From contig NC_135355.1 in assembly GCF_051622035.1 (NCBI RefSeq), forward strand, positions 33,709,986 through 33,773,985: a stretch of DNA of 64,000 nucleotides, written 5' to 3'. Each line of letters starts with the position of its first letter. The first letter of the stretch is position 1. This document shows positions 20,085-22,020 of this stretch, piece after piece. Source of the DNA: Arctopsyche grandis (Eukaryota; Arthropoda; Insecta; Trichoptera; Hydropsychidae). The position numbers and the translations under genes are program-made. The notes under the pieces are model-generated. The model had not been told where the DNA came from, ran no database searches, and saw only the letters and a list, made by a program, of their open reading frames with translations.

Positions 20085-22020
20085 TTAAGCTTTATTTGAA
20101 TCGATCCAAGCTGTGAACGAACTAACTCGGGTGAAGACATCTGGGTATCCTATTGCACAAGGCATGCCCCATGATACGATGCCCACAACTTTTCCACCAG
20201 CTGTCAGGGGACCACCAGAATCTCCCTGAAAAACCATTACATTACATTTCAATCCAGGAAATATTCCACAATATAATAAATTCAACAAATAACTGATACT
20301 TACGTGGCAAGCACCTTCTCCAGCCTTGGTCAGAGTACATATTTGAGATTCAACAACTAGTCTCGAATGCGCTGACTTACATTGTTCGTAGGTTTGAGTC
20401 AAAAGACTGATGATTTGAAGATCATTAGGAGCCGTTCCTGGGTACTATAAAAATATAAAAAATAAAACATAAGTACATATATGTATATACATATGTAGTT
20501 AAAATATAATACGAGTCTATAATATAAAATTGTTACAGATGTAGTTCCCCATCCAGAAAGTACAACAGTAGCTCCTCCATCAGTGTAGTCTCGTCCTAGT
20601 TCAATTGCTTTTACTTTATCACCAAATTCGATATCTTGACTGAGAATTACTAATCCAATATCATTAATGATAAATGCAGGAATATAGTCTTCTTTAATTT
20701 TGAGAGATGTGGCTTGATATGTGGTGCCTCCAGCATTCAATGTATTTGTTCCAACCACAACGACAGTGTTTGATGCTGTACGCCTAATAGAAGCAAAGTC
20801 TTATTAAAATTATTATGTAAAAATAATATAGTAACTTATGATTTAATAACAATTACCCATTCAAACAGTGAGCAGCAGTCAAAATGGTCCTTGGTGAGAT
20901 GATGGAACCACCACAGAAATGGGAATTGGATGACGAGCGAAGGGATACTTGATATGGAACAGCTCCATTACCTGCATTGGATCCACCGACCACTCTCCAG
21001 TCCCATTCGGACTCCACGGGTAAACCTGTAACAGTTAAAACTATCTTATGGTTATAAGTTTGAAAAGTATACTTTCCAGACGTAAAATTTATAGGATGTG
21101 ACTATTTGTACATACGGTATCGACGAATTATTGGCTATTTGTACATACAGTACATAGTACATAAGAAGATTATAAGAATTAGGGTTGAAGATTAATAAAT
21201 TATAAGATTAGAAATTTAAAGTCGCTTAAGAAACTTTTCCTTTGGCCGTTTCATATAACATAAAAGCGCAACATTTGACAGCGTAAGTAACGTTTGGTAT
21301 AAACCTTTTAAAAGTCAGCAAAACTGTTCAAAAACCGTATTTTAGACTAAGATTCGATTCGATCTCACTTATTTGATGCTTCTTTGCACTGCTGCCATAA
21401 TATTACAGGAAATTGTGGACGAATTATTGACTATTTGTAGGTACAGTACATATGAAACTTTTTCTTGACTTGATATTTTGGTTTTATATGCTTAGGAGTA
21501 AATTTTTTTGAGTTTATATGCTTAGGAGTAAATTTAGAAATCAAATATTACATACAATAATAAATCAAGTTTATTTGTTTCATAAAAGATCAAAAACGAA
21601 TAAAAAACAATAAAAATCCTATGTTTGGTGATTTACACTTAAGTTTTAAAAAATAATGCCAGTTGTTAATTGTTGAAATTGCCAATGGACGGACACACAA
21701 CGAATATTTCATCTGAAAAAAAAAAATCTTAGCAAAGGAAAAATTAAATCTTAGCAAAGTACATATTTATTTATCAATAATTCGTTGATACTGTATGTAC
21801 AAATAGCCAAAAATTCGTCGATACTGTATGTACAAATAGCCAATAATTCGTCGATACTGTATGTACAAATAGCCAATAATTCGTCGATACTCTATGTACA
21901 AATAGCCAATAATTCGTCGATACTGTATATACAAATAGCCGCATCCAAATTTATAAGATAATGCTTACCGTGAATAGCACTGAAAAGTGCGAGCACAAAG
22001 AAGACCGTTGCTTTGAACAT
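20085..22020 (-). CDS. SP2, secreted S1-family serine protease, brachyurin-like
   Basis: Exons in gene order: 22020-21969, 21025-20857, 20783-20537, 20444-20304 and 20225-20085, totalling 249 residues. Signal [18 protein letters not shown], then propeptide [10 protein letters not shown] with predicted activation at [11 protein letters not shown]. Triad: [21 protein letters not shown]. Six cysteines make the three standard disulfides. GEGACH gives Gly189, and GYPDVF gives Asp226. Intron phases (1, 2, 0, 0) equal those of SP1, SP3 and SP4. It is nearly identical to SP3 outside the Asp-loop ([13 protein letters not shown] against [13 protein letters not shown]) and the 168-loop. Intron 1 carries a foldback-like transposon (21094-21946) absent from SP3. 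Likely an extracellular digestive enzyme; the substrate is not known. Confidence 0.94.
21094..21946. mobile_element. Foldback-like element with 33-bp subrepeats and 9-bp duplication, in SP2 intron 1
   Basis: AAATTTATA at 21085-21093 is repeated at 21947-21955. SP3 intron 1 has a single copy at the same site. The ends are inverted: GGATGTGACTATTTGTACAT on the left, and GGATGCGGCTATTTGTATAT read inward from the right. The right arm is five tandem 33-bp units (TTCG at 21781, 21814, 21847, 21880, 21913); the left arm has one to two inverted units plus a degenerate one near 21418. No ORF, so nonautonomous. Long inverted arms of short tandem units with 9-bp duplications are the hallmark of FB/Mutator-group elements. 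Confidence 0.88.

Follow-up and report, generated by a model that had tools for sequence, protein, structure and literature searches.

The window analysed here, meaning the whole stretch of 64,000 nucleotides, comes from contig C1 (NC_135355.1) of the trichopteran Arctopsyche grandis (C1:33709986-33773985). Its minus strand carries a cluster of at least four related genes for chymotrypsin/trypsin-like proteases, the best solved relative of which is chymotrypsin 1eq9 (E 1.5e-60), a fire ant enzyme. Two of these genes, SP2 and SP3, adjoin each other and are 89.8% alike over 1.2 kb. Relative to SP3, the first intron of SP2 holds 853 additional bp and one additional copy of AAATTTATA, and alignment of the two genes, in which the flanks are continuous across the junction, places the insertion at 21094-21946 with boundaries exact to the base. 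Intron 1 is thereby 943 bp long in SP2 and 82 bp in SP3 (25095-25176), and the splice ends are kept. The two SP2 copies of AAATTTATA are identical and the SP3 site bears no footprint, so that the 853-bp element with a 9-bp duplication and an empty paralogous site (two copies of AAATTTATA in SP2, one in SP3), as claimed in the original prediction, is found as described. The features of the locus are as follows.

21026-21968, minus strand: intron 1 of SP2, host of the insertion, with GT..AG ends
21085-21093, plus strand: left target site duplication, AAATTTATA, of which SP3 holds a single copy
21094-21100, plus strand: left end motif, GGATGTG
21101-21133, minus strand: left arm, one full 33-bp unit
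21134-21152, minus strand: left arm, 19 bp of a second unit
21153-21771, no strand: interior, whose matches in longer copies fall in noncoding sequence past the 3' end of the transposase frame
21418-21452, minus strand: part-unit relic (35 bp) within the interior, in left-arm orientation, 91% alike to 21122-21156
21772-21774, no strand: putative deletion junction, where the interior would be joined to the right array and the transposase gene is missing
21775-21939, plus strand: right arm, five 33-bp units
21940-21946, plus strand: right end motif, CGCATCC
21947-21955, plus strand: right target site duplication, AAATTTATA
25155-25163, plus strand: empty site in SP3, single AAATTTATA

Some other features of the window were observed alongside the insertion. 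Between positions 20439 and 20638, only 2 of 189 aligned bases (with 11 gap columns) distinguish SP2 from SP3, compared with 10.7% over noncoding sequence overall, and this stretch is possibly a gene-conversion patch between the two genes. A dispersed repeat surrounds the pair (22164-22626, 27481-27944 and 42688-43067), its copies being 89-90% alike and one of them inverted. Another hairpin-like element, 384 bp long, with inverted ends and unrelated to the first, is found at 35310-35693, between exons 2 and 3 of an apparent fourth protease gene; it is flanked by an exact 9-bp duplication, TAAAATAAT, at 35301-35309 and 35694-35702, and a piece of its open frame recurs in two of the loci described below, L036 and L042. 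Additionally, a palindromic stretch at 6826-6993 is 82% self-complementary, and a 273-codon open frame on the minus strand (44521-45342), for which Pfam gave no match up to E 1, resembles what we take to be the end of a non-LTR retrotransposon.

The element begins with GGATG and ends with CATCC, and its arms are built of 33-bp units that are inverted relative to each other. The arms are asymmetric, as had been predicted, with five units on the right, and one full unit plus 19 bp of a second on the left. Each unit of the right array lies 0 or 1 base from the middle one at 21841, and the outer 59 nt of both arms are 92% complementary. The best 54-nt arm pairing reaches 52/54, whereas 100 dinucleotide shuffles of 20800-22200 never exceeded 37/54, and the 18-base unit core, with up to 3 mismatches allowed, has eight matches in the window against 0.20 expected; the array and the arm pairing thus bear out the description of a foldback-like element of 33-bp units. 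Folding of the element strand gave a z of -6.2 against 20 shuffles. An inverted-pair scan of the window with 8-10-bp duplications returned two weak pairs but neither this element nor the one at 35310-35693, a silence that means little because the arm matches probably run past the ends. Rfam gave no match in the window at gathering scores, and the four frames tested, out of 24 running from stop to stop around the element, had no Pfam match up to E 1.

When the element was used as a query against its own genome (475,669,232 bases in 189 contigs), at least 154 matches were found, a lower bound on the copy number since 40 of 521 first-look candidates were scored. Thirty loci were cut out, 29 of them distinct (L030 repeats L028), and both ends could be recognized by motif in 15 of the 29. 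All 15 two-ended copies are flanked by a 9-bp duplication, exact in 13 and with one mismatch in two. The search for further copies proposed in the original prediction has therefore returned a dispersed family with the same ends and the same duplication length, and other target lengths, a possibility it had also raised, are absent from these 15. The remaining 14 loci showed one end or none at first reading and were fetched again at nearly 10 kb each, which gave a pair, chosen by matching duplication, in two of them and none in 12. One pair (L042) spans 1440 bp with an exact duplication and the other (L037) 2814 bp with one mismatch, the boundary of the latter being uncertain because its outer end lies in a palindrome that takes in flanking sequence (L037:2300-2520). 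For 10 one-ended loci the flanking 9-mer was sought within 3 kb, with one exact match, not beside an end. The unit was absent from viral contigs and from bacterial and archaeal genome contigs in exact scans, and the element had no blastn match among phages.

The target sites of this family are poor in G and C. In the 15 duplications, 7 of 135 bases (5%) are G or C, compared with flanks measured over 10-200 bp that range from 24% (10 bp) to 32% (100 bp). Ten of the 15 contain no G or C at all, and that of L018 has 3 in 9. When three further copies are included (L037, L042 and an element on contig C11, all chosen by their duplication, so that the 15 form the unselected set), hand counts give 12 of 18 without G or C, against 6% of window 9-mers, and 17 of 18 with at most one.

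The original prediction also placed the insertion after the SP2/SP3 duplication. This fits the empty site, which argues for such an order, and is likely but unproved, as the age of the element overlaps that of the gene duplication. At 16 of 261 positions (6.1%), 12 of them private (4.6%), the window copy departs from the majority sequence of 28 aligned stretches, among which only one is more diverged; these stretches come from the 27 loci most similar to it, with L028 represented twice and L007 and L008 lost to a length filter. The noncoding divergence of SP2 and SP3 is 5.4% per lineage (68/633/2; interval 4.2-6.7%). The near-identity of the right units would suggest a younger insertion, but it is not used for dating because units of the same arm resemble each other. 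Overlapping ages leave room both for an insertion early after the duplication and for an element that was already in the ancestral gene and left SP3 by precise excision between its 9-bp copies. The latter has a copy divergence that matches the SP2/SP3 value in its favour, and precise loss has a precedent in Muta1 of Aedes aegypti, of which, with target duplications on either side, about 90% of the excisions selected in yeast were precise (PMC5225508). It requires, however, an insertion followed by a precise loss where a single insertion would do, and it is faced with an SP3 site without footprint and identical duplication copies in SP2; it is thus a minority possibility, to be kept in mind. 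Insertion soon after the gene duplication is favoured, being simpler. Because the element would be spliced out with intron 1, its effect on SP2 is probably small.

Arm size varies in this family, as the prediction of size-variable arms had held: across 17 copies there are 0-5 full units per arm, some examples being 1+5 (the window copy), 5+1, 4+1 and 2+5. Units of the same arm differ by 2.82, compared with 3.47 when shuffled (P 0.02, 57 pairs), and when the outermost unit is excluded the same-arm difference is 2.24 of 33 against 3.91 shuffled (25 pairs, 8 arms; reached in 0 of 5000 shuffles). The two arms of one element, on the other hand, are no more alike than those of different elements (4.14 against 3.47). 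This likeness within arms suggests that units are gained and lost inside one arm, and they may multiply there by unequal exchange or slippage. In the copy at L028:1463-2300, mirror symmetry between the two arms extends over about 320 bp and takes in units as well as inner sequence, with a transposase piece between them.

The longer copies point to a candidate source of mobility. An open frame in L037 has a SWIM-like CxC...CxH pattern, with a Pfam SWIM score of 14.6 bits, below the cut-off of 19.6, and a genome search with this frame gave 34 matches, one of them within a 691-codon open frame on contig C11. The latter exceeds the Pfam cut-offs for MULE (35.0 bits, cut-off 27.6), ZSWIM1-3_RNaseH-like (58.2 bits, cut-off 27.2) and SWIM (24.2 bits, cut-off 19.6); a FAR1 match falls below its cut-off, and one to IS256 is weak (19.1 bits against 150). 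This frame belongs to the following element.

C11:1652429-1655608: sister element, 3180 bp, with exact 9-bp TTTAAAATA on both sides

The arms of the sister element consist of 33-bp units about 80% like those of the window, and its ends are GGTTGTGG. Pieces of its protein, 34-67% identical, are found in loci with window-type arms, so that the window copy is kin to copies bearing pieces of transposase. In five of these loci (L031, L032, L033, L037 and L047) the pieces stand in the expected order and direction, the C-terminus pointing towards the left arm as it does in the C11 element, whereas those in L043 and L028 are rearranged. An intact copy of the window's own subfamily was absent from the loci read, the sole long frame examined being in the sister subfamily. 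Alignment of the window copy with L031 and L032 breaks off at element position 678, and with L035 at 677. Sequence in common with the window copy begins at 4580 in L032, 35 bp past the end of the transposase match at 4545, an order suggesting that what the window copy retained is the noncoding 3' side, to which the right array is joined at about 21772. Judged from these alignments, its transposase gene was probably lost by deletion.

Since related copies carry pieces of MULE transposase, the insertion is assigned, with a probability of roughly 0.9, to the Mutator-like (MULE) DNA transposons as a nonautonomous, internally deleted member with foldback-type arms. Its 9-bp duplications fall within the 8-11 bp, mostly 9 bp, that characterize MULEs; a transposase with a MULE domain lies between family arms in the sister element, with pieces beside window-type arms; and inverted arms of tandem units that vary between copies are those of the Foldback structural class. 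Membership instead in Rehavkus, another 9-bp group in which tandem monomers make up the inverted ends (PMC6446971, PMC10218199), would account for the duplications and the arms, but such arms come here with a transposase that matches MULE and SWIM models, and the PHD finger with which Rehavkus is described (PMC6446971) is absent from the 7 Pfam families detected up to E 0.1 in the sister frame, the only frame tested; this placement is very improbable. As for a local inverted expansion of minisatellite units within the intron, without any transposon, tandem arrays can arise by slippage and the right units are near-identical, but the exact 9-bp duplication with its empty site and a dispersed family whose members agree in their ends and in duplication length lead to its rejection as having practically no chance of being correct.

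Several known systems share this organization to different degrees. The Drosophila FB elements have 9-bp duplications and inverted arms of variable size, built from tandem units of about 31 bp. The likeness to FB is one of arm architecture, taken from these general features, and it is the transposase pieces that place the element with the MULEs. For the other systems the comparison relies on parts of the sources cited. Muta1 and other A. aegypti MULEs have 8-9-bp duplications, terminal inverted repeats made of a short end motif and subterminal tandem repeats, and nonautonomous derivatives in which repeat numbers vary, Muta1 being regarded by its authors as classable as a type 2 Foldback element; Muta1 differs in its 12-bp repeat unit (33 bp here), in a transposase of 504 aa (691 codons in the sister frame) and, so far as that part of the paper goes, in the lack of an apparent insertion sequence preference, in contrast to the A/T-rich duplications seen here (PMC5225508). 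The Tm1 Mutator/Foldback elements of root-knot nematodes have composite arms with variable tandem units, mostly 9-bp duplications, MITE-like members and some members with a Phantom-type MULE transposase, but their units are of 13-15 bp, their end motifs asymmetric and their targets, in the sections used, without clear consensus, and a FLYWCH finger is discussed for them rather than SWIM and a sub-threshold FAR1 as here (PMC3169594). Tetris of Drosophila virilis, assigned to Mutator by its authors, is a nonautonomous foldback element with tandem repeats in its arms and 8-10-bp duplications; its units are of about 220 bp and, in the portion of the article available, an autonomous copy was not found (PMC4079207). 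Rehavkus-1_TC of Tribolium has tandem monomers in its inverted ends, mostly five and eight (PMC10218199), and the group makes 9-bp duplications (PMC6446971); this element differs in its 164-bp units and its length of 9.5 kb (PMC10218199, PMC6446971), and the group in the PHD finger already mentioned. A survey of arthropod MULEs is also available, likewise drawn on in part (PMC13359780). Among the papers listed in text searches of the literature, none deals with this family of 33-bp units.

Taken together, a pathway can be proposed that starts from an element like the sister, which has a transposase frame with MULE, RNaseH-like and SWIM domains between two arms of 33-bp units; such a gene would have been lost from the window copy, perhaps through gap repair. 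The shortened copy may then have moved in trans, with the transposase binding its arms, and have entered an A/T-rich 9-bp target by a putative staggered cut, the repair of which would give the duplication; arm length would change through gain and loss of units within one arm. The element is a new member of a described kind, the foldback-armed MULEs, with an ordinary mechanism in an unusually clean setting. At slightly less than even odds, it may represent an undescribed insect MULE family that enters almost only 9-mer targets containing no more than one G or C, and in whose arms 33-bp units continue to be gained and lost within each insertion. Such a family would have a long open frame for its transposase elsewhere in this genome, SP2 and SP3 being a natural pair for precise entry versus exit. 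It is a clean worked example in that a single genome offers an unambiguous empty site, a nonautonomous copy and relatives that bear transposase, which matters because the source transposase of a foldback element cannot always be found, as in the account of Tetris cited (PMC4079207). Moreover, the preference for A/T-rich targets and the resemblance among units of the same arm make the role of the 33-bp units for the transposase, and the way in which arm length changes, open to testing.
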